IMG/VR virus record: IMGVR_UViG_3300009151_000088
Span: 1 to 55,887 of that record
DNA length: 55,887 nucleotides
DNA from: a virus
Strand: one strand, 5' to 3'
Shown here: piece after piece, positions 35,169-48,921 of the stretch
How positions within the stretch are numbered: position 1 is the first letter of the stretch
Layout of the letters: every line of letters begins with the position of its first letter
Notes under the pieces: model-generated
Databases searched by the model: none
Told to the model about the DNA's origin: nothing
Seen by the model: the letters and a program-made list of their open reading frames with translations, nothing else
Position numbers and translations under genes: made by a program

Positions 35169-35947
35169 AATGTTTTATATCTAATTCCTCTATTAATCCC
35201 TCTCCAAGGATAATCTTCAAACGTAACTTTTCCTACTGCTGAATATACTTCTCTAATCTGAGAATCAGCAGATTTAACAAATTTATCGTCCAGCGGAGCA
35301 AATTCTGGCAATACTTGTTTAATATAAACTAAATGATCCGATGGTACTCTATGAGAATCATTTAGTGTAACATAATTTGTTAAAAGGAAAGGTTTAGGTA
35401 CTTGTCCTAGAACAGAATAAAAACTAGGTTGAATAGTTTCTAATACATCTTTATACAGATCTATTACATCAGAAGATGTTTTGCTAAGTTCAAATTGTGT
35501 ATCATCGAGATTAATATTTAACGATAATCCCACACCACACATTGATATAAAATAAAATTTGCAACCTATTTTTTCTAGAAGATCTTTAGCGGCCTTGATC
35601 ATCGCAATATCTCTAATAAAAAATCCTCGCATATCAAAATAATTTTTAATATATTCTGCAGGATAATAATTAGGTAATCCACCCTTAGTAATCCATTTTT
35701 TATCTATGTACCTATCTTCTCTTAATATGCTAGACCATTGAATAATTACTAAATCATTTTTGGTAATTTTATGTATTTGATCTGCTTGCATAAGCATATT
35801 AAAAATGTATATGTTTCCTGCACCAGACATTCCATAATTATAATAATTGTTGTTATATGACTGTCCTATAATATCTGCCCAGGTTGGCCATTTATATAGA
35901 GTATAACTACATCCAAATGCAAAAAATCTATTTTTTATAGTTTTCAT
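35165..35947 (-). CDS. SGNH/GDSL hydrolase-like protein (260 aa)
   Basis: The ATG at 35,947 giving MKTIKNRFFAFGCSYTLYKW is chosen, since the family's block I sits close to the N-terminus; a frame from 35,968 is also possible. Block I AFGCSYT supplies Ser, block II YGMSGAGNIYIF Gly and Asn, block III VIIQWSS. A DSHRVPSDHLVYI segment near the C-terminus may give the Asp-His pair. Fourth SGNH domain of the island; it lies between two twitch-type radical SAM genes and overlaps both. Confidence 0.65.
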   Translation of the reverse strand: MKTIKNRFFAFGCSYTLYKWPTWADIIGQSYNNNYYNYGMSGAGNIYIFNMLMQADQIHKITKNDLVIIQWSSILREDRYIDKKWITKGGLPNYYPAEYIKNYFDMRGFFIRDIAMIKAAKDLLEKIGCKFYFISMCGVGLSLNINLDDTQFELSKTSSDVIDLYKDVLETIQPSFYSVLGQVPKPFLLTNYVTLNDSHRVPSDHLVYIKQVLPEFAPLDDKFVKSADSQIREVYSAVGKVTFEDYPWRGINRGIRYKTL

Positions 35948-37292
35948 ATATATCTTTGCACAGGGCATAGAACTCAGCGTATTCAGGAAATGTCTTTAGC
36001 AGGGCTGTACCTGTGCGTTTATCGTTTTCAGTAAAGAATACATAAAAGTCTCTACGACCTGCACGAATCTTATCTTCGCTGATATCATGCTCTTTCATAA
36101 AGTTTGTCACACGTTTAAACTTTTCATATTCAACACCAGTAAACCATTCTGGATTGTCTTGAATAAACTTTAAAGTATTATCCATATAAGGAATAAAGTC
36201 TGGTGTAAGGATTTTAATCATCCAGTGTGGTGGTTCTTTTAGGTAAGGTGTATCAAATGCCACACACTTCATACCACGTTCCTTGCGCCATTCAATTACT
36301 TTTTCTAATAGCTGTTGGAAATTAGTAACACATAGAACATTAAATGTACACATTAGATTAACTGTAGCACCTGTATCCATAACGGCTTTAGCGTTACGTT
36401 CCCAATGGCTACATTCTAAACCTGTACGCATATACTCTGCTTGCTCGCCCCAACTATCGATACTAGTAAAGAAACTAAACTTACGGATCTTCTTTTGGTC
36501 TAGTAGGCTTTTAACACGAGCTAACAGTCTATCAATTTTACCGTAGGCAACACCTAGATTACTGTTTAATGTAATTTCTAGATTAGGAGCTGGTTCGTCT
36601 TCTAGCAGGTCAAAGAAGTGCATGGCCGCTGGATTCATCAATGGTTCACCGCCAGTAATGCGTAGTGTGTGCAGATCTTCTTTAAGACTTGGCCACCATT
36701 TCCAAAACGCATCAATGTAGGGATTTTGTTCTTTGGCTGTATAATATGTGCCGTTGTCTAAGAACTCTATACCATATTGATTGTAGGTTAAATCATAGTT
36801 ACCATATTCTTTGATCTCATTGACCCATTGCGTACTAGACTGTGGACAGCAATAGCCACAACGGAAATTGCAGTTATTACCAAAGCTGACTTCCAAATAT
36901 TTTGGATTAATGTTTTGATCCCAAGGAAGTTCTGCTAGTTTTTCAATTAAAGGTTCAGCATAGTCACTGCTACTGTGCAACATACGGTCGCTTAGGTGAT
37001 CGCCTTCTAGATCTTCAATGTTCCAACAATAGTAACACTCGTCTGGACGCTCGCCCTCTAACATTTTTTTACGTTGTTCTTTTTTCCATTTTGTATTATG
37101 TAATGCGCTGGGGTCTGCGGCAATCTCGTCTAAAGGAATGTGTTGTGGTCGAGGATGATAACAACTATGGTTGTCTCCGGTGTGTAGATACAGGGTTTCA
37201 TGTAACCACTTTTGTGTGCAGAAGCTAGGGCTTACTGCATTTAATCTATCTCTAACATTTTTTACAAATTGTACTCTATGATCATCAGCCAT
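35928..37292 (-). CDS. Radical SAM protein with N-terminal twitch-like domain (454 aa)
   Basis: The motif C141, C145, C148 (FGNNCNFRCGYCCPQSSTQW) and the GGEPLMNPA strand mark the core. N-terminal cysteines C25, C44, C86 and C89 (PSFCTQKW, HSCYHP, CYYCWN) mark the auxiliary cluster part. The beginning (LNAVSPSFC.QKWL) is nearly shared with the 478-aa neighbour (LNAVSPSFCLAKWF), so the two arose by duplication. Both also share CYHP and IPL.EI. The product likely carries two [4Fe-4S] clusters. Confidence 0.9.
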   Translation of the reverse strand: MADDHRVQFVKNVRDRLNAVSPSFCTQKWLHETLYLHTGDNHSCYHPRPQHIPLDEIAADPSALHNTKWKKEQRKKMLEGERPDECYYCWNIEDLEGDHLSDRMLHSSSDYAEPLIEKLAELPWDQNINPKYLEVSFGNNCNFRCGYCCPQSSTQWVNEIKEYGNYDLTYNQYGIEFLDNGTYYTAKEQNPYIDAFWKWWPSLKEDLHTLRITGGEPLMNPAAMHFFDLLEDEPAPNLEITLNSNLGVAYGKIDRLLARVKSLLDQKKIRKFSFFTSIDSWGEQAEYMRTGLECSHWERNAKAVMDTGATVNLMCTFNVLCVTNFQQLLEKVIEWRKERGMKCVAFDTPYLKEPPHWMIKILTPDFIPYMDNTLKFIQDNPEWFTGVEYEKFKRVTNFMKEHDISEDKIRAGRRDFYVFFTENDKRTGTALLKTFPEYAEFYALCKDIYENYKK

Positions 37293-38721
37293 GTGTTTCC
37301 TTACATTGTGTCCAGAATGTATTTAACTCTGGGAAAGTTTCTAAAAAATTAGTTTGGTTTCTACGATCGCCCTCTTCAATAAATGCTAGGAAGTTTCGTA
37401 TTGCCGCGTCTCTATCAAATTCTACAGGACTCTTAATCCAATCAACAAGGCGTTGTACTTTACTAATTTCATAATCTTTGAATCCTTTGAATGCTGTTTC
37501 CATTGTTTCTTTGTTAGCTTCCATGAACTTAATACTATCTTCTAAGACAGTAACCATCTCCGGCATTAGTTTTGGGTTAAGCCACTCCGGGTAATGTAAT
37601 TGTGGAACATCAAACCAAATCAGCTGTCGTGTTTTGTTAAACTCTTGTCTAAGTTTAAGAATATTTTGAATATATGTCATCCAACCAGGATAGCTTAATA
37701 AATTGAATGTGCAAATAAAAGACATGCTGTGTTTGTCATTGCCTTTGACTAAGAATTCTTTGATGTTTTTGTACAATGTATCAAAATGCAGGCCTGTACG
37801 GATATATTCAGCCTGTGGTCCCCAGCTATCTAAACTACAGAACAACATAAAGTGATCAATGGATCCTGGATTGGTTAATTCTTCTAAGCTGGTCATGAAC
37901 TTGGCCCATTGATTGCCAGGCGGACAACAATTGCTAGTAATGCTTAGGTGCAATTGTTTACTGGGATTCTGTTTGACATAGTCAAATACCTTAAACGTAC
38001 TCTTATCCATTAGTGGCTCACCACCAGTCATACGGAACGTTTTTAATGTAGGATATACTTTAGGAAACCACTCCCAAAAGGCCAGTAAGTAAGGATTGTC
38101 GGGACTGTTGTTGGGCCACACATTGTTGTCAGTCATCCAGCTTAGGTCATTGTGCCAACGATCAGTTAATATGTATGCACCGTTACGCTCAATGTCCTTC
38201 ATCCACTCTGTGCTTAGGTGTGGACTGCAATATCTACATTTGAGATTACAGGCTTGGTTAAAATTTACTTCAACATACCGAGGGCTGGCATTACCTGTTG
38301 ACCCTAGCTCAAGGGCTTCTTGTATAATACCTTCTTCCCAAACATCCTTACTACGATAAGCACGGTCGCTGAGTTGATTTCCACTATCTTCTATTTCCCA
38401 ACAGAAGTGGCATTCACTAGGTCTATCTCCTTTGATCATCAAAGCACGTTGCTCTTTTTTGTAAGAAGTATTATGTAATGCACTAACATCTATCTTTATT
38501 TCCTTTAATGGAATATGATGACTGTTGGGATGATAGCAACTGTGTGTCTGCCCTGTGGGGATATGTATACTAACATTAAACCATTTAGCTAAACAGAAGC
38601 TAGGGCTAACTGCATTTAGTTTAGTATAGATATCCTGTGTATCAACAAAGTATTTTGTAGCATTCTTACCCTTAACCGTAAGTATCTCGTTGCCTCGGAT
38701 GTTTGTTTTATCGTCACTCAT
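37285..38721 (-). CDS. Radical SAM protein with N-terminal twitch-like domain (478 aa)
   Basis: Core motif C158, C162, C165 (NQACNLKCRYCSPHLSTEW) and MTGGEPLMDKS. Auxiliary cysteines C43, C62, C104 and C107 (SFCLAKW, HSCYHPNSHH, ECHFCWE). Paralogue of the 454-aa protein next door, as their N-termini and spacing of motifs agree. It overlaps the upstream repeat/glycosyltransferase-like gene and the downstream paralogue by 8 bp each. Substrate unknown; the duplication suggests two related positions of the same substrate. Confidence 0.9.
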   Translation of the reverse strand: MSDDKTNIRGNEILTVKGKNATKYFVDTQDIYTKLNAVSPSFCLAKWFNVSIHIPTGQTHSCYHPNSHHIPLKEIKIDVSALHNTSYKKEQRALMIKGDRPSECHFCWEIEDSGNQLSDRAYRSKDVWEEGIIQEALELGSTGNASPRYVEVNFNQACNLKCRYCSPHLSTEWMKDIERNGAYILTDRWHNDLSWMTDNNVWPNNSPDNPYLLAFWEWFPKVYPTLKTFRMTGGEPLMDKSTFKVFDYVKQNPSKQLHLSITSNCCPPGNQWAKFMTSLEELTNPGSIDHFMLFCSLDSWGPQAEYIRTGLHFDTLYKNIKEFLVKGNDKHSMSFICTFNLLSYPGWMTYIQNILKLRQEFNKTRQLIWFDVPQLHYPEWLNPKLMPEMVTVLEDSIKFMEANKETMETAFKGFKDYEISKVQRLVDWIKSPVEFDRDAAIRNFLAFIEEGDRRNQTNFLETFPELNTFWTQCKETHG

Positions 38722-40909
38722 TTATAGTTTTAAATTGTTGTTCTAACCATTCATAATCATTAACACGATTAATAGTAGGATTTTTAAGAGCATAGTCTCT
38801 ACCCTGCATTGCACCCTTCTTTGCCCAATCTGTAAAGTCCGCATCCATATTAATTGTTAACCATTTTGATAACCTATGTTTAGATTCATTGTCTGTTTTA
38901 ACAGCAAGTTTAGCACACTCTCTAAATGCACTTCTCCAGGTATCAAACTCCGACGCATTAAATCTTGTTTCATTACTAATCTGATCTATTATTTTAAATT
39001 TATTACTAACAGACGTAGTAAGGTCTGTACCCCATTTAGTAGTTCTTTTTAATAGGGATGTAGGAAATAGTTTAACACCTCCGTAGCCGTATGTCAAGCT
39101 ATTAATAGGATTAATACTGTTCCAAACATAAACACAATCTCTGTCATATAAACTGGGTTGGAAGTCAAATGTCCAATTGTCGACTAACCATGCATCACCG
39201 TCTACTACATAAAACATATCCGTTGTTGCTAATTTGGCTGCGGCTTTGTGTGCATTTAATATACCCGTTACTCCAGCAATCCTTTTAGCATTTGGAGCAA
39301 AGGTTAGTAGGCGTTGCCAGTTTTCTTCTGCATTAGGCTCCTTATAGGAAATAAAGACTACATCTAATTGCCTAGGTATTATAGGTTCAATCATTCCCAT
39401 TTCTTTAATGCCAGTAGGTTTTTTAACAGCCCTAAGTTTTGCAGACCATACCTGTTCGCCATTAATCATTGTATACCAAATATGCTCATACATTCGATCA
39501 TGGACAGGTATTTTATATTCTATCTCAATATATAAATTTGTCAATGCTAGATTGAACTCTATGAATTGGTCGGGCTCAAGTGCTTCTACCTGTTTTGAAC
39601 CTTTAGTTTTATTAACATAGGTTTGCTTCACTGCCCACATAGATTTATCAAATTGTTGATAGTCAGAATCTAACATCCAAATGTGTTCATAACCTAGGTC
39701 ATACCAAGCGGGCAAATGATCTGTGTTAAAATTGAAACCTTTTAGTGCAGGATTAATTTTAAATTTAGAACTAGGGCTAACATAGTCAATAAATTTAGAT
39801 CCAATTGGTTCTTTAACCGCACTAGCAGTTAACGCCCATATTTCTTCTTCACCATGTTTTAAATGATTATTATCTAACATCCAAACTTGTTCATACCCTA
39901 AATCGTACCATGGCACCGCATAATCAATATCATATTTTAAATCAGGAAGAACTGGATTAAGTGTTACTTTAAAGGTAGGGCTAATATAATCAATAATCTT
40001 ACTTCCATCTAGTTCGTTAGATACTTGAATAGTAAACGCCCATATATCATCTTTACCGTTAGCTAAATGTTTTCTATCTAGCATCCATACATGCTCAAAT
40101 GCAAAATCATGCCAAGGTATCAGATATTCTAAATCGTAGTCTAATTCTGGCAGTTCAGGATTAAACACGATTGTGAGTTCCGGAGTTACGATCCCTAGCC
40201 ACTTCCACTCTTTAGGTTTACGCCACATAGGAGTAAACTTAACAACCCAAAGTCTTTCATTGTTTGTTTGATGTATAGGATCCAACTCGTAGGCACATTC
40301 ATGTGCTAGGTCATAAAAAGCGGGACAACAATCATTTGCATCAACGCCTAGGTCAGGTAAGTGATCATTAAACTGCACAGCTACATCGGGTACAACATAT
40401 CCCATATCTTTTGTGCCAAGTATCTCTTTGCCTATTGGTTGGCAACTAAAAGCCCATACTTTATCTTCTAAAGGATTGAATCTCTCGTCCATGTACCAAA
40501 CTAGTTTGTAATCTCTATCCCACTTGCTGGGATTAAATGAGCCAAACGGATCATCTTCATAGGTTATTAGTTTATCAATATCTGGATTACGTGTCCACGC
40601 TAGTTCAGTTTTGATAATTTCAACTGTTTCATATCCATGATAAGGATACCATCCATCTTTAAATATTTTAACTATCCAATCGTTGTTGTAAGTTACTACT
40701 ATGCATTTTCTAGTGTTAGGTACTTCTTCCACATAATACTTAAGATCAACACGCCATTGTTCGGGATAATCATTATTTGGATTTACCACATAAAACTCTA
40801 AATGGCCTGCACCTAGCTCATATAATTGTAGATCGTAATAAAGATCGTTGCCAAGCCAATCTACTTGGGATACTCTTTCAGTTGGTATTTGATGTATTCT
40901 ATCGAACAT
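38714..40909 (-). CDS. Repeat-rich protein with C-terminal glycosyltransferase-like domain (731 aa)
   Basis: Residues about 185-520 comprise five modules of 65-75 residues with the core YDLGYEHIWMLD....WA.......GSK.IDYV.P...FNP.LP.L.YD. Residues about 525-700 start RQLDVVFISYKEPNAEENWQRLL and contain HKAAAKLATTDMFYVVDGDAWLVDNW, where DGDAW is a DxD-type motif of GT-A glycosyltransferases. The repeats may measure or bind a glycan. It is the first gene of the radical SAM run, with a strong hairpin right before its ATG. Its role could be to hand a substrate to the radical SAM enzymes (inference). Confidence 0.6.
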   Translation of the reverse strand: MFDRIHQIPTERVSQVDWLGNDLYYDLQLYELGAGHLEFYVVNPNNDYPEQWRVDLKYYVEEVPNTRKCIVVTYNNDWIVKIFKDGWYPYHGYETVEIIKTELAWTRNPDIDKLITYEDDPFGSFNPSKWDRDYKLVWYMDERFNPLEDKVWAFSCQPIGKEILGTKDMGYVVPDVAVQFNDHLPDLGVDANDCCPAFYDLAHECAYELDPIHQTNNERLWVVKFTPMWRKPKEWKWLGIVTPELTIVFNPELPELDYDLEYLIPWHDFAFEHVWMLDRKHLANGKDDIWAFTIQVSNELDGSKIIDYISPTFKVTLNPVLPDLKYDIDYAVPWYDLGYEQVWMLDNNHLKHGEEEIWALTASAVKEPIGSKFIDYVSPSSKFKINPALKGFNFNTDHLPAWYDLGYEHIWMLDSDYQQFDKSMWAVKQTYVNKTKGSKQVEALEPDQFIEFNLALTNLYIEIEYKIPVHDRMYEHIWYTMINGEQVWSAKLRAVKKPTGIKEMGMIEPIIPRQLDVVFISYKEPNAEENWQRLLTFAPNAKRIAGVTGILNAHKAAAKLATTDMFYVVDGDAWLVDNWTFDFQPSLYDRDCVYVWNSINPINSLTYGYGGVKLFPTSLLKRTTKWGTDLTTSVSNKFKIIDQISNETRFNASEFDTWRSAFRECAKLAVKTDNESKHRLSKWLTINMDADFTDWAKKGAMQGRDYALKNPTINRVNDYEWLEQQFKTINE

Positions 40910-42636: not shown

Positions 42637-42816
42637 TTATTTGTGTGAAAATTCTTTTCTTAATTCTACAAACCATTGAATAAAAATATCATCTGGAAAC
42701 ATTTTTATTAATAAGTCGGCCGCTGGTATCGAAACACCAGTCAATAATAACATTTTTTCTTCGTAGGTCAGTAGTCTAATTTTTTCAACTACTTGTTCTG
42801 GGGTATAACTAAACAT
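42637..42816 (-). CDS. Small hypothetical protein (59 aa)
   Basis: The ATG lies inside the last codons of the Hint-domain gene (8-bp overlap), with AAGGAAC upstream. The product reads MFSYTPEQVVEKIRLLTYEEK, then a hydrophobic helix (MLLLTGVSIPAADLLIKMF) and a FIQWFVELRKEF end. It is helical and could be membrane-associated or a small chaperone. Not recognised. Confidence 0.55.
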   Translation of the reverse strand: MFSYTPEQVVEKIRLLTYEEKMLLLTGVSIPAADLLIKMFPDDIFIQWFVELRKEFSHK

Positions 42817-43945
42817 TTTTGTTCCTTATCATCTGTTTTAATTTAAGTACTGGAAGGACAACAATACCTAATAGTTTTAATAAACTCATAGAAACTTTTT
42901 GTATTGTCGGGGACGATCCTACTTTGAATACCTTTGCATTTATCTTGTTTATTGCATTTATGTTCATCCAGCCTAGAAATATATTATACAGGTATCCACC
43001 ATAGACTGCATTATTTCCATTTTCAATGAACAAGCGTCTAATTGCCAACACTTCGTCTTTGGTCAATAATTGTTTTCTGTAACCTTCAAGAAGACCGCCG
43101 CCATCACCAAATATACTATGTGTTCCATATCCGTTGACTCTAAATGTATGATCACCATCAACCCATAGACTATAAACACGTTGACCGCTTGCAGGTATTA
43201 CCTTATCAGGAGTTAATAACTTGTTCTTACCCAGCCAAGGATACATTTGATAATTTATTTCTGGATATACTGCATACATTTCTCCATTGATAATCAAAGG
43301 ATGATTAACTGTGGCAAATGGCGCATATTCAGGTGTGGGTGAATACAAGGCTCGATATGTATCATCTGTGTCATATTCAGTGAATGTCACTGTGTTAACG
43401 GCACTACGGTTATGATTATAAACTTGTTCACCCTCTTGTACATCTACTATACGTTTTGTAGTTCCGTCGGCCATGTCAACTAGGGTATCAGCAGTAAAGC
43501 ATTCGGAAATTACACTAAGGATAATCAGTAAGGGAATAATATCCCATCCGCCACCTCCACCTCCTCCACCACCTCCACCGGTGCCAGGACCACCAATAAC
43601 ATATTTGGTAGGATCGGGCACAGGCAGTTGAGAAATAATCACTGTGTTGGTCACAGTCATTGGATTTGATATACCACGCAAAGACGCACTTATAGCCACG
43701 GTACCTGTATATACTCCAAACACTGCGGTATTGGTACCATACCAAGAAGTAAAGTTAGTTGAACTGTTAGGCTGTATAGTTGTATTAGTAGCAGTAGTTG
43801 TACCTAAAAATATACCAGGAACCCCAAAGTTAGTTAAAGTAGATCTATGATAGATACTGGCGGTAGTAGTAAATGCAAAGCCCGTGACTGTGGCTGCTGT
43901 ACTACTGTTATTATATATTGTATAGGTAATTGGAGGATATGCCAT
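42809..43945 (-). CDS. Structural protein with Hint (intein-like) domain (378 aa)
   Basis: Residues 1-117 are a Thr/Ser-rich beta domain, followed by a poly-Gly run (about 119-132) and a hydrophobic stretch (WDIIPLLIILSVIS). A Hint domain begins at C148 (ECFTADTLVDMADGTTKRIVDVQEGEQVYNH, intein block A), with block B TVNHPL (211-216) and block F VYSLWVDGDHTFRVNGYGTHS (257-276). The final HN of inteins is HS here, and no C-terminal extein nucleophile is seen, so full splicing is unlikely; N-terminal cleavage or thioester ligation at C148 is possible. The last 100 residues are basic and helical. Likely a self-processing virion surface protein. Confidence 0.8.
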   Translation of the reverse strand: MAYPPITYTIYNNSSTAATVTGFAFTTTASIYHRSTLTNFGVPGIFLGTTTATNTTIQPNSSTNFTSWYGTNTAVFGVYTGTVAISASLRGISNPMTVTNTVIISQLPVPDPTKYVIGGPGTGGGGGGGGGGGWDIIPLLIILSVISECFTADTLVDMADGTTKRIVDVQEGEQVYNHNRSAVNTVTFTEYDTDDTYRALYSPTPEYAPFATVNHPLIINGEMYAVYPEINYQMYPWLGKNKLLTPDKVIPASGQRVYSLWVDGDHTFRVNGYGTHSIFGDGGGLLEGYRKQLLTKDEVLAIRRLFIENGNNAVYGGYLYNIFLGWMNINAINKINAKVFKVGSSPTIQKVSMSLLKLLGIVVLPVLKLKQMIRNKNV

Positions 43946-44154
43946 TAATTAAATGCCTCGTCTCTGTATCTAGAAATTGTACCATCTGCATATACTATAG
44001 TCACAGTATGTTCAATGATAGTAACTGTAACTTCTTCGTCGGTACAGCAACTACTTTTACCGGTAAATTGAATATCCTGTAAGGTGCCTAGATACTTGTA
44101 CATTTTGTATAGGATCTCTGCTTCATTTTCACAGGTGCATGTTTTTGTAGTCAT
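43945..44154 (-). CDS. Small Cys-containing protein (69 aa)
   Basis: The product begins MTTKTCTCENEAEILYKMYKYLG and has a second pair of cysteines (SSCCTDEEV), then strands VTVTIIEHTVTIVYADG. The four cysteines could bind a metal or form disulfides. A GGTAAATA element ends 5 nt before the ATG with no ribosome site, making it the first gene of the Hint operon. Its stop overlaps the next ATG by one base (TAATG). Function unknown. Confidence 0.6.
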   Translation of the reverse strand: MTTKTCTCENEAEILYKMYKYLGTLQDIQFTGKSSCCTDEEVTVTIIEHTVTIVYADGTISRYRDEAFN

Positions 44155-44172: not shown

Positions 44173-46302
44173 TTATGTCCAAGTAAATGTACCTGTACCC
44201 AAGGTCCAGTCAGTGAGCATATTACCATCACCGTCATAGGTAGGAGGTGTGCCGCCCCATAATAATTGCATATTGCTCCACCAATTGTATATACTAATAC
44301 TCGATCCGTTGTCTCCAGTACCCCATGCCGTAGGATAAGTCCTAATGCTCATTGAAGTAGCACTGGTTTTGGTAATTCTATATGTGTAGGCGACACGTGA
44401 ATATGGACCATTAACACCACTAGGTATCTGATAATCAACTACCTGACTAGTAGTTAACGCAGTTAAATTCACAGAACCAACCATGGTCCAAAATGGTCTT
44501 AGGTTATTCTGATATCTATACAGGTTACTTTCAGTCTGAGCACTACCTATCAGGCCATTGCCGTTAAATGCCAACCACTCCCAATTACAGGTTTGGCAGT
44601 TTGGGGGGTCTGTGGGCCATACCCCCATATATAGCCAAACATTGCCCTGCACTCTATCCAGTGAGAAACCGCCCTGTGCTGAATAACAGCCTGCCACACT
44701 CTGAGATCCGGATATGTGATTTGTGTTAGGAGCACTGGCATAGTATTCCCAAGGACCGTAGTTCCAATATCCTGATATAGGATCTACTAATAGATCTGCC
44801 ACACCGTCATTACGGAATGTAGCTGTTAGATCAATACGTTTGGACAGACTAACATCACTGTTGTCGCGCACCGCTAGTATGTTCACACTCAGCGTACCAC
44901 TGCTGTATGTAGTTGATGTAGTAGTTGTTCCTGCATTAAGGAAGTTGTCTCTGGTATATTTCCAATTACCATTGTCATAAAGATAATCTGCAAACTGGGC
45001 CCAGGCTACATCTAAATCATTGCCTTGTGCTGTGGTATTGTAATAGGGAAACCAAGTTAGCTGGCCGCCTGTGTTAAAGAAATAACGGGCCATTTTATTG
45101 GTAGGAAAATCTACCCTAACCTTGTGACTGATTTCACGACTCCATACCGCGGTTCTAGTACTGGTCCCGTAGCCAATGTCAATGTAGCTGTTATTACTGT
45201 ATAGATATTGATTAGGGTGGCATTCATATCGGTGTGCGTCTAGCCAATTTATAGTATTGGATAGAGTATTATGCATACCAATGGTAATTGGAGTACCTAC
45301 CAAGGGTGTAAGGGTAGTTGTTGAAGTGTTGGTAACATGTATATGAGCATAGTTAATATCAGTGATTAACCTATTCCACTGTGTGCGTGTAATTCTATTT
45401 CTACGACTTGCAGGGCGACTGTTAATTCCGCCAAAACCGTAGCCATTGTTTCCTAGACCTAGTATGTCACTGATCTTGGCCTGTATGCTGTTATATGCTT
45501 CCAAAGGAATAATACTGCTGGGCAAATCAACACTGACTGTAAATGTTTGGTTTCCGCTAGCACCCGCGCTGTCAACAGCCCGCATAACCAACACTACTTC
45601 GGTGCCTGCGACTGTAGGGGTTCCGCTAATTGATCCAGTGGCGCTATTTAAGGTTAGACCAGTGGGTAATGTGCCGCTGATTATTGAGTATGTATAAGGA
45701 GCTGTACCGCCTGCGGCCGCAACAGGTTGGAAATCTGTGGGAACATTAATACGTAGTCGTTGATTGGCAATCAGTAGGACCTTAAAGGCTGAGGCTACAT
45801 TGGCCACAGGCGGCTCGGCGGCTACCACACCTGTATTACCATTTATATAGGCCGCGTATTCTTCCTGTGTTAGAATACGTCCATCAGTTTGCCCATATAC
45901 CACTTCATTGTTGCCAGAATATGGGCTGTTGAAGTCTATGCGATATAATAGTGTCCAACCAGCATAGGTAGTACCCGGAGTATAACTCGCAGCCTGTCCA
46001 GGAAAGCTCATGGTAAACTGTACACTGGCATAGGTAAGTTCAACTCCTGTGGTAGTTGCGGCAAAGTTAATTGGTATAGCTGTTATTGGACTAGGTGTAC
46101 AGTGATTATATCCGTAAAACGTCATCGTTCCGCTGACGGGAGTGGGAAAGCTGGAGCTCAAGGTCCAGTTGGCTGTGATCGTGGTGTTTTCTATTTGAGC
46201 ACCCGTGAGATCTGTGCCTGGATAGAAGTTTACTCGATCAAAGGCAGTGCTGGCTCTACCTCCAGTGCTAGGATCATTAGGGTCGTATATAATTATTGCC
46301 AT
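44173..46302 (-). CDS. Large virion protein with putative-Ig domain (709 aa)
   Basis: Residues about 195-260 form a He_PIG/Ig-like module (FQPVAAAGGTAPYTYSIISG, LPTGLTLNSATGSISGTPTVAGT). The N-terminus has beta strands with TFDRVNFY-like opening, and residues about 290-700 hold aromatic, Asn-rich strands including a CYSAQGGFSLDR and NCQTCNWEW cysteine zone. It is typical of phage adhesins and baseplate-linked proteins. A TAAATA element at 46,327-46,332 lies 24 bp upstream. The family is not recognised beyond the Ig module. Confidence 0.65.
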   Translation of the reverse strand: MAIIIYDPNDPSTGGRASTAFDRVNFYPGTDLTGAQIENTTITANWTLSSSFPTPVSGTMTFYGYNHCTPSPITAIPINFAATTTGVELTYASVQFTMSFPGQAASYTPGTTYAGWTLLYRIDFNSPYSGNNEVVYGQTDGRILTQEEYAAYINGNTGVVAAEPPVANVASAFKVLLIANQRLRINVPTDFQPVAAAGGTAPYTYSIISGTLPTGLTLNSATGSISGTPTVAGTEVVLVMRAVDSAGASGNQTFTVSVDLPSSIIPLEAYNSIQAKISDILGLGNNGYGFGGINSRPASRRNRITRTQWNRLITDINYAHIHVTNTSTTTLTPLVGTPITIGMHNTLSNTINWLDAHRYECHPNQYLYSNNSYIDIGYGTSTRTAVWSREISHKVRVDFPTNKMARYFFNTGGQLTWFPYYNTTAQGNDLDVAWAQFADYLYDNGNWKYTRDNFLNAGTTTTSTTYSSGTLSVNILAVRDNSDVSLSKRIDLTATFRNDGVADLLVDPISGYWNYGPWEYYASAPNTNHISGSQSVAGCYSAQGGFSLDRVQGNVWLYMGVWPTDPPNCQTCNWEWLAFNGNGLIGSAQTESNLYRYQNNLRPFWTMVGSVNLTALTTSQVVDYQIPSGVNGPYSRVAYTYRITKTSATSMSIRTYPTAWGTGDNGSSISIYNWWSNMQLLWGGTPPTYDGDGNMLTDWTLGTGTFTWT

Positions 46303-47171: not shown

Positions 47172-47546
47172 ATGTTGGTTTCTGCACCCATATCAGTGGG
47201 CGAGCTAGTGGATAAGATTACCATATTGGAAATCAAACTGGATCGCATCAACGAAGCCGCTAAACTCACTAACATAGCCCTGGAACTAGGCCATTTAACC
47301 AGCATACTTGAAGGCTTGGATCTCAAGAACACAGAAGCCCTGCTTAGGTCAGATCTAAAAGCGATAAATGCAGAGCTTTGGGACATTGAAAACTTCAAAC
47401 GACACTGTGAAAGCACACAGGATTTTGGCCCAGAATTCACTGAAGCCGCTCGCAGTGTCTACTTGAAAAACGATCAACGTGCGGCTCTAAAACGTGCCAT
47501 AAATGTGCTAGCGGGTTCAACGATCATAGAAGAAAAGAGCTATTAA
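47172..47546 (+). CDS. DUF6165-like protein (124 aa)
   Basis: The start at 47,172 (MLVSAPISVGELVDKITILEIKLDRI) is chosen one base after the GT9 stop; a longer frame would overlap the GT9 end by 65 bp. The all-helical, charged product matches my memory of DUF6165, often next to glycan genes. It resembles the protein at 24,210-24,560. Its stop overlaps the next start by 1 bp. Function unknown. Confidence 0.65.
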   Translation: MLVSAPISVGELVDKITILEIKLDRINEAAKLTNIALELGHLTSILEGLDLKNTEALLRSDLKAINAELWDIENFKRHCESTQDFGPEFTEAARSVYLKNDQRAALKRAINVLAGSTIIEEKSY

Positions 47547-48127
47547 TGCTAGAGGACAAGAACACAGCCTTAGAAGCTTATATACAGGTTTTTGAAGATA
47601 TCCTGAGTCTCGATGTTATAGATGCACTCCTGGGCGAATATCTGCACAGCGACGAGTGGCAGGCCACCAAAGTGGGCTCACACAATGTCATAGACCGAAG
47701 TACTCGCAACTGTGACGTCATAAGCATGAGTCAGCCCGGGGTCATAGAGCACAAGAACTCTGAGTTGAGATCTCAGTTAGATCAAGCAGTGTTCAAGTCA
47801 GCTAGTTCAGCAATCACAGCCTACAATATGCGCTTTCCCTTGGCCCAGATCAGCAACGACACGGGCTATGAAATACTGAGATATGAAACCGGGCAGTTTT
47901 ACATAGAACATGTGGACAGCTACACACAGCAACCCCGAGCAGTGAGCTGTAGTTGGATACTCAATGATGACTACGAGGGCGGTGAGTTCAGCTTTTTCAA
48001 TGATCAAATCCGCTACAAACTACCCAAAGGTAGCTGTATAATGTTTCCCAGTACATTTATGTATCCACATCAGATCATGCCTGTGACTCAGGGCACACGC
48101 TTGAGCATAGTCACTTGGTTTATCTAA
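47546..48127 (+). CDS. 2-oxoglutarate/Fe(II)-dependent oxygenase
   Basis: The facial triad and substrate Arg are in order: H122 and D124 (FYIEHVDSY), H175 (MYPHQIMPV) and R185 (TRLSIVTWF), with SCSWILNDDYEGGEFSF as the conserved core, as in prolyl-4-hydroxylase-type oxygenases. Such enzymes hydroxylate protein prolines, sugars or lipids using 2OG and O2. In T4-type phages related genes often sit near structural genes and may hydroxylate virion or glycan targets. The stop overlaps the convergent small gene by 4 bp. Confidence 0.85.
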   Translation: MLEDKNTALEAYIQVFEDILSLDVIDALLGEYLHSDEWQATKVGSHNVIDRSTRNCDVISMSQPGVIEHKNSELRSQLDQAVFKSASSAITAYNMRFPLAQISNDTGYEILRYETGQFYIEHVDSYTQQPRAVSCSWILNDDYEGGEFSFFNDQIRYKLPKGSCIMFPSTFMYPHQIMPVTQGTRLSIVTWFI

Positions 48128-48843: not shown

Positions 48844-48921
48844 GGGCCGTTAGCTCATGTTGGTTAGAGCAGTGGACTCATAATCCATTGGTGCTGTGTT
48901 CGACTCACAGACGGCCCACCA
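48844..48921 (+). tRNA. tRNA with CAU anticodon (tRNA-Ile2 likely, or Met)
   Basis: A full cloverleaf is visible: acceptor GGGCCGT/ACGGCCC, D arm GCTC/GAGC with a 10-nt loop, anticodon stem GTGGA/TCCAT with loop CTCATAA, T arm CTGTG/CACAG with TTCGACT loop, A73 and encoded CCA. The anticodon is CAU. C4-G69 and C5-G68 are the acceptor pairs favoured by the lysidine synthetase TilS, and elongator tRNA-Met of E. coli has U4-A69 and A5-U68, so an Ile (AUA) tRNA is more likely. G48 and T15 are unusual. An AUA-reading tRNA would suit AT-rich genes. Confidence 0.9.

Follow-up and report, generated by a model that had tools for sequence, protein, structure and literature searches.

As far as we know, no role has been assigned to most of the non-splicing Hint domains that occur outside animals. 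In human SHH, the Hog domain consists of a Hint domain followed by a helical region of ~97 aa, the SRR, which is said to have no homologues in the PDB (PMC7906309). Hedgehog residues D303 and C400 are not found in inteins, and the D303A mutant retains DTT cleavage and loses cholesteroylation (PMC9163320). Bacterial intein-like (BIL) domains of type A end in His-Asn, and Vint domains are known from eukaryotic VWA–Vint proteins.

Here we analyzed a 55,887-base IMG/VR virus record over its whole length (the window) and describe a Hint cassette at the C-terminal end of one of its proteins. We place this cassette in the HINT superfamily as a new subfamily that is carried by phages and Hog-like in its architecture, outside the Hedgehog, BIL type A, intein, Vint and PT-HINT families.

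A Hint domain in a phage protein

The Hint protein and its immediate neighbors are encoded on the minus strand, with the following layout.

42809–43945, minus strand: open reading frame of the 378-aa Hint cassette protein
43616–43945, minus strand: residues 1–110, beta-rich (Ig-like) N-terminal domain, presumed cargo; predicted strands at 2–104, pLDDT 45–74
43502–43615, minus strand: residues 111–148, poly-Gly linker and hydrophobic WDIIPLLIILSVISE, conserved in the window clade
43115–43501, minus strand: Hint domain, residues 149–277; pLDDT mostly 92–98, Z 15.7 to BIL2 6y75
43499–43501, minus strand: Cys149, block A nucleophile, with the predicted scissile bond at E148–C149; Cys in 49/49 rows
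43376–43378, minus strand: Glu190, invariant acid (49/49) at the Hedgehog D303 position by alignment
43301–43312, minus strand: block B T212-x-x-H215 (T212-V-N-H215); Thr and His in 49/49
43115–43177, minus strand: block F VYSLWVDGDHTFRVNGYGTHS, residues 257–277, ending HS and not HN; N at 277 in 0/49
42812–43114, minus strand: C-tail, residues 278–378, five helices, cationic; present in all 49 rows, pLDDT 86.6 when predicted alone
42637–42816, minus strand: 59-aa partner ORF, from translation; its start codon overlaps the Hint stop (ATGTTTAG)
43945–44154, minus strand: 69-aa Cys-rich ORF upstream; its stop overlaps the Hint start
44173–46302, minus strand: 709-aa He_PIG/Ig protein, upstream neighbor (Pfam He_PIG E 1e-14), syntenic in L041–L044 and L077
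40948–42561, minus strand: 537-aa downstream neighbor, syntenic in L041–L044, L062, L077 and L095, with weaker similarity in L080

The initial annotation of this DNA proposed a Hint domain built from three motifs, and all three are present: block A reads CFTADTLV from residue 149, block B reads ATVNHPL, and block F closes the domain. Its numbering of the nucleophile as C148 was off by one, as the Cys is residue 149. The same annotation described a final HN replaced by HS and the absence of a C-extein nucleophile, both borne out here, with Ile278 as the +1 residue. It also placed a poly-Gly stretch, a hydrophobic segment and a beta-rich domain ahead of the Hint, and we locate these at residues 123–133, 134–147 and 1–104. 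The pattern GGGGWDIIP(L/I)L is common to the window protein, L001, L041 and L077.

Single-sequence Pfam matches of the window protein fall under the curated cut-offs (Hint E 0.0016, Vint E 0.0027). Across the family described below, Pfam Hint is matched by 44 of 49 members (best 2.6e-6) and Hom_end_hint by 41 of 49 (best 2.5e-9), and at the sequence level the family profile retrieves solved Hint domains (6y75, E 2e-5). An AlphaFold model of the full 378-aa protein, built from a 50-row alignment, has pLDDT values mostly of 92–98 in the Hint domain, about 87 in the C-tail and 45–74 in the N-terminal domain, with residues 105–146 below 50. VIA-align Z scores were highest for BIL2 of T. thermophila (6y75, 15.7; 6TMM, 14.9), followed by the gp41-1 intein (6riz, 13.0; 6qaz, 12.9), the C. 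thermocellum BIL (2lwy, 12.8), Vint (8r2c, 11.9) and Hedgehog (1at0, 10.9), so that the closest folds by Z are BIL2 and inteins, ahead of Hedgehog. The top Foldseek match was Vint 8R2C (E 3.9e-7). Judged from this model, residues 149–277 almost certainly adopt a Hint fold, and not the non-Hint fold that the initial annotation had named as the contrary outcome. Structurally aligned ranges end with residue 277 on gp41-1 residue 125 and residue 278 on Hedgehog residue 401; read from these range ends, Ser277 would stand both at the terminal-Asn position and at Hedgehog C400.

A conserved helical C-tail follows the Hint domain

The initial annotation gave residues 278–378 no special role. We find that this region, the C-tail, follows the Hint domain in every row of the 49-row family alignment, and that when predicted alone it forms five helices. 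Compared with 223 control pieces of neighboring proteins, C-tails have a median net charge of +5 versus −2 and hydrophobic peaks of 1.24 versus 0.82, a comparison whose p values are indicative only because homologous sequences do not count as independent. Among the 4 PDB chains compared, none matched the fold of the C-tail on its own with Z of at least 2, and its best Foldseek E was 7.7, a result that does not show a new fold. Because no solved fold matches convincingly, the likeness of the C-tail to the SRR is one of position, size and helicity only.

Between the window and L001, a virus contig with a homologue 93% identical to the window protein, dN/dS is 0.05 in the Hint domain and 0.12 in the C-tail; both are under purifying selection. 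DNA identity between the two is mostly 90–97% in the surroundings, falls to 77–86% over 43501–43950, which encodes the N-terminal part, and recovers at the Cys149 codon. This pattern suggests that the cargo domain was exchanged or diverged fast while the cassette stayed.

The cassette family

Besides L001, homologues of 372–375 aa are encoded in L041–L044 and L077. More distant relatives were gathered with a Hint-only query and a pattern scan, and their alignment, then used as the query, returned 80 virus loci, from 88 confirmed. We retained 65 loci, 49 of them non-redundant at 90%, among which the HN-type L102 is kept outside the residue counts. All residue counts come from the 49-row alignment A4, which includes the window and leaves out L102.

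Relatives are 27–96% identical. Invariant across A4 are Cys149, Phe150, Ile166, Val186, Glu190, Phe210, Thr212, His215, Trp237, Tyr258, Trp261, Asp265, Asn271, Thr275 and Gly316. Gly precedes Cys149 in 30 of 49 non-redundant loci; the window has Glu (E148) there. At the terminal-Asn position, 277, the family has Ser in 43 rows, Thr in 4, Cys in 1, Asp in 1 and Asn in none; the position before it is Thr in 34 and His in 8, and the +1 residue is usually Ile. With Asn in 0 of 49 rows, the HS ending of the window is therefore a family property and not decay. L102 and L104 are related virus proteins, and L102 retains HN, with Lys at the Glu190 position. Position 190 is variable (E, D, L, K, H, R, I and S) in the other Hint domains that these loci encode.

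A single Hint match was found in 28 of 31 records, which gives no support to a general tag that would sort many proteins of one virus; extra Hint matches lie upstream in the same protein in L071, L073 and L082. These three phage proteins, L073 (1838 aa, seven Hint matches), L082 (1786 aa) and L071 (786 aa, 5′ open), carry tandem Hint domains in which the earlier ones are HN-type and the last is one non-Asn Hint with a C-tail.

A genome scan for a bacterial origin gave no match with the full window protein as query. With the profile as query, L119 was the only match across the whole cassette; it is a 3,960-base contig binned as an Erysipelotrichaceae MAG and would fit a phage fragment. In isolate phages, the cassettes of the window, L047, L086 and L088 had no match at E 1e-3, and those of L035 and L020 had only partial matches of 24–32% to Vibrio phage proteins (E 0.002–0.004). 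Nothing matched the window protein in PHROGs or among 50,697 phage records, and representative cassette queries likewise found no full-cassette match among the 50,697. We found no description of the cassette family in the open-access literature; apparently, uncultivated phages bear a so far undescribed family of such cassettes on their tail and baseplate proteins.

Carriers and gene neighborhood

The N-terminal parts of cassette proteins fall into several unrelated clusters, and the cassette is always C-terminal on these virion proteins, usually behind a Gly-, Pro- or Ala-rich linker. DUF4815 proteins (Pfam E 5e-55 to 8e-58; PHROG 358) belong to the largest carrier cluster; in isolates, their homologues are VrlC or virion structural proteins encoded directly behind a baseplate wedge gene. 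The N-terminus of L086 is a gp5-type baseplate hub (PHROG E 7e-30). DUF4815/VrlC-type proteins and the gp5 hub of T4-like phages (Kyanoviridae) are homologous to the N-terminal parts of many carriers, but the isolate homologues examined (HTVC008M, ACG-2014f, S-SZBM1) are free of the cassette: the VrlC, virion structural and gp5 proteins examined had no Hint match at E 10. Downstream gene order is common to L079, L086, L087 and L093, where genes for 125-aa and ~605-aa proteins look, by eye, like gp25 and gp6. The window clade (L001, L041–L044, L077) carries a small Ig-like cargo. Carrier switches of the cassette cannot be counted, because the cassette gene tree is poorly resolved. From the virion, tail and baseplate neighbors and carriers of its relatives, the assignment of the window protein as a phage surface protein in the initial annotation is plausible.

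Homologues of the 59-aa partner ORF, detected with a profile, directly follow the cassette in the window clade as well as in L079, L086, L087, L089, L093 and L094. Hence, two unrelated carrier types share cassette and partner. The profile found no homologue elsewhere in the collected loci, the DUF4815-carrier clade included.

The wider neighborhood holds several further genes. The 69-aa Cys-rich ORF, which separates the Hint gene from that of the Ig protein, recurs in L001 only among the loci examined. A 731-aa protein (38714–40909, minus strand) has tandem repeats (WYDLGYEHVWMLD) whose number differs from that in L001; its C-terminal part looks glycosyltransferase-like by eye (DGDAW). The protein has no Pfam or PHROG match and is syntenic with the cassette in L041–L044, L051, L077 and L095. 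Two adjoining radical SAM proteins (35928–38721, minus strand), one with a twitch domain (N_Twi_rSAM, E 3e-89), are encoded near the virion genes, and relatives lie beside the cassette in several related loci. A 2OG-Fe(II) oxygenase gene (47546–48127, plus strand; PF13640 E 1.7e-16) is situated near the virion cluster, and a tRNA-Met (CAT) gene occupies 48844–48921 on the plus strand.

Comparison with known Hint systems

The cassette shares with the Hedgehog Hog domain (1AT0, PF01079) the Hint fold, the Cys nucleophile, the TxxH motif, the missing terminal Asn and a helical region of ~100 aa behind the Hint, as well as, in most members, the Gly before the Cys. It differs in having Glu190, likewise an acid, at the position that sequence alignment gives to Asp (D303) of Hedgehog, and Ser277 in the window, with the family spread given above, at the position aligned with C400 of the SCYA motif. 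For the cassette C-tail, neither sequence nor fold shows detectable similarity to any known region, and the carriers are phage virion proteins whereas Hedgehog proteins are secreted signalling proteins. Glu190 falls on D303 in all three MAFFT runs, a sequence register for which the Hedgehog Hint sequence was checked against 1at0; when the family profile was compared with Hedgehog by hhalign, the alignment covered no more than the first 30 residues, the block A region.

BIL domains (T. thermophila BIL2, 6Y75/6TMM; C. thermocellum, 2LWY) are the best structural matches and share the block A and B chemistry. Type A members differ at the His-Asn end, where the cassette has Ser or Thr for Asn and continues into the conserved C-tail, and with terminal Asn in 0/49 rows we ruled out BIL type A. 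The initial annotation had drawn its parallel with bacterial intein-like domains; because the conserved helical C-tail trails the Hint in all 49 rows, that is not the best label, and a Hint domain with a C-terminal recognition region, as in Hog, fits closer. The VIA alignment to Vint (8R2C, PF14623) extends to residue 318, inside the C-tail; the cassette differs in its Pfam Vint score, which is under the cut-off, and the window protein has no VWA match among Pfam results at E 1. A class 1 splicing intein was ruled out by the HS end followed by Ile278, the family-wide absence of Asn and the conserved C-tail that ends the protein. A PT-HINT polymorphic toxin was ruled out as well, the C-tail being one conserved family in 49/49 rows and not a variable toxin domain.

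Discussion

The window Hint is, with near certainty, not a splicing intein; on its sequence, splicing and Asn-driven C-terminal cleavage are excluded. The initial annotation had likewise expected no full splicing, and its reading in terms of N-terminal bond cleavage or thioester chemistry fits the invariant Cys149 and TxxH, the family-wide loss of Asn, the missing +1 nucleophile, the confidently predicted Hint fold and the purifying selection on Hint and C-tail. By analogy with Hedgehog and BIL chemistry, an N–S acyl shift or cleavage at 148/149 is probable. The Hint fold would activate Cys149 and shift the backbone from amide to thioester at E148–C149 (Gly-Cys in most relatives), and an outside nucleophile would resolve the thioester because the terminal Asn and the +1 nucleophile are gone. 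The invariant Glu190 may serve as base or gate, as D303 does in Hedgehog, and the cationic helical C-tail, joined in the window clade by the 59-aa partner, would select or admit the acceptor. The predicted product is the N-terminal virion domain off the cassette, with an adduct or, if water wins, with a plain C-terminus. That the thioester is passed to a specific acceptor rather than to water has somewhat less than an even chance. Whether the whole acts like the Hedgehog Hog domain, as a cassette through which phage virion proteins process themselves at the C-terminal end, is an evenly balanced question. In its favor stand the predicted fold, the invariant catalytic columns, the alignment of Glu190 with D303, the Hint-plus-helical-region layout shared with human SHH, the purifying selection, and the occurrence of mostly one Hint match per record on unrelated virion carriers, two types of which lack the cassette in the isolate homologues examined. 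Against it count the Glu at position −1 of the window, in place of the family-usual Gly, the closer fold match to BIL2 and inteins than to Hedgehog, the short profile alignment with Hedgehog and the C-tail that has no convincing match among solved folds.

A serious rival to acceptor-directed resolution is simple release of a C-terminal assembly domain. The C-tail could serve assembly or folding, like the intramolecular chaperones of tail-spike proteins, a possibility we hold as tentative; equally tentative is the corresponding role for the Hint part, in which hydrolysis of the 148/149 bond after folding would free the mature N-terminal virion protein. The constant C-terminal placement on virion proteins, usually behind a Gly-, Pro- or Ala-rich linker, agrees with release, as do the hydrolysis of thioesters that lack an acceptor and the retention of the cassette while the N-terminal part diverges. 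By itself, however, release leaves the invariant Glu190 and the strongly cationic C-tail unexplained, and a chaperone of 230 aa seems more than an Ig-like domain of 110 aa would require. We slightly favor acceptor-directed resolution because the acid at the D303 position and the dedicated C-terminal domain are invariant.

Covalent cross-linking, in which the thioester would be attacked by an amine or hydroxyl belonging either to a second virion protein or to the 59-aa partner, so that the N-terminal domain becomes fixed to the particle, is improbable. The virion context suits it, and the partner ORF overlaps the cassette gene and adjoins the cassette on two unrelated carriers, but no candidate acceptor residue was identified, and the partner cannot be a general acceptor because it was not detected in the DUF4815-carrier clade. 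Loss of the terminal HN might also point to a catalytically dead structural domain; this is very unlikely, as the N-side catalytic residues are invariant across the whole identity range of the family, only the C-side ones are lost, and the Hint dN/dS is so low. A splicing intein, or a BIL type A domain with C-terminal cleavage, shares the fold, but it is least probable of all given the missing Asn, a +1 residue that is usually Ile and the absence of any host-protein C-extein, since the conserved C-tail ends the protein.

Taken together, these loci describe a coherent phage family. Its cassettes have a C-terminal domain of their own and keep the catalytic residues invariant; the virion cargo is interchangeable, and two clades add a coupled small ORF. 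Possibly, though doubtfully, the cassette is a phage Hog-type acyl-transfer device in which the Hint thioester would covalently join tail-tip, baseplate or adhesin proteins, by their C-terminus, to an acceptor; that a new helical recognition domain would choose this acceptor, be it a lipid, a sugar or a protein, is a similarly speculative part of the reading. If acyl transfer holds, the cassette would be a viral counterpart of Hedgehog autoprocessing. With this family, the origin and function of Hog-type architectures become testable outside eukaryotes. The family suggests that tail and baseplate proteins in uncultivated phages process themselves or are covalently decorated, and may be a source of new thioester-generating protein tools.
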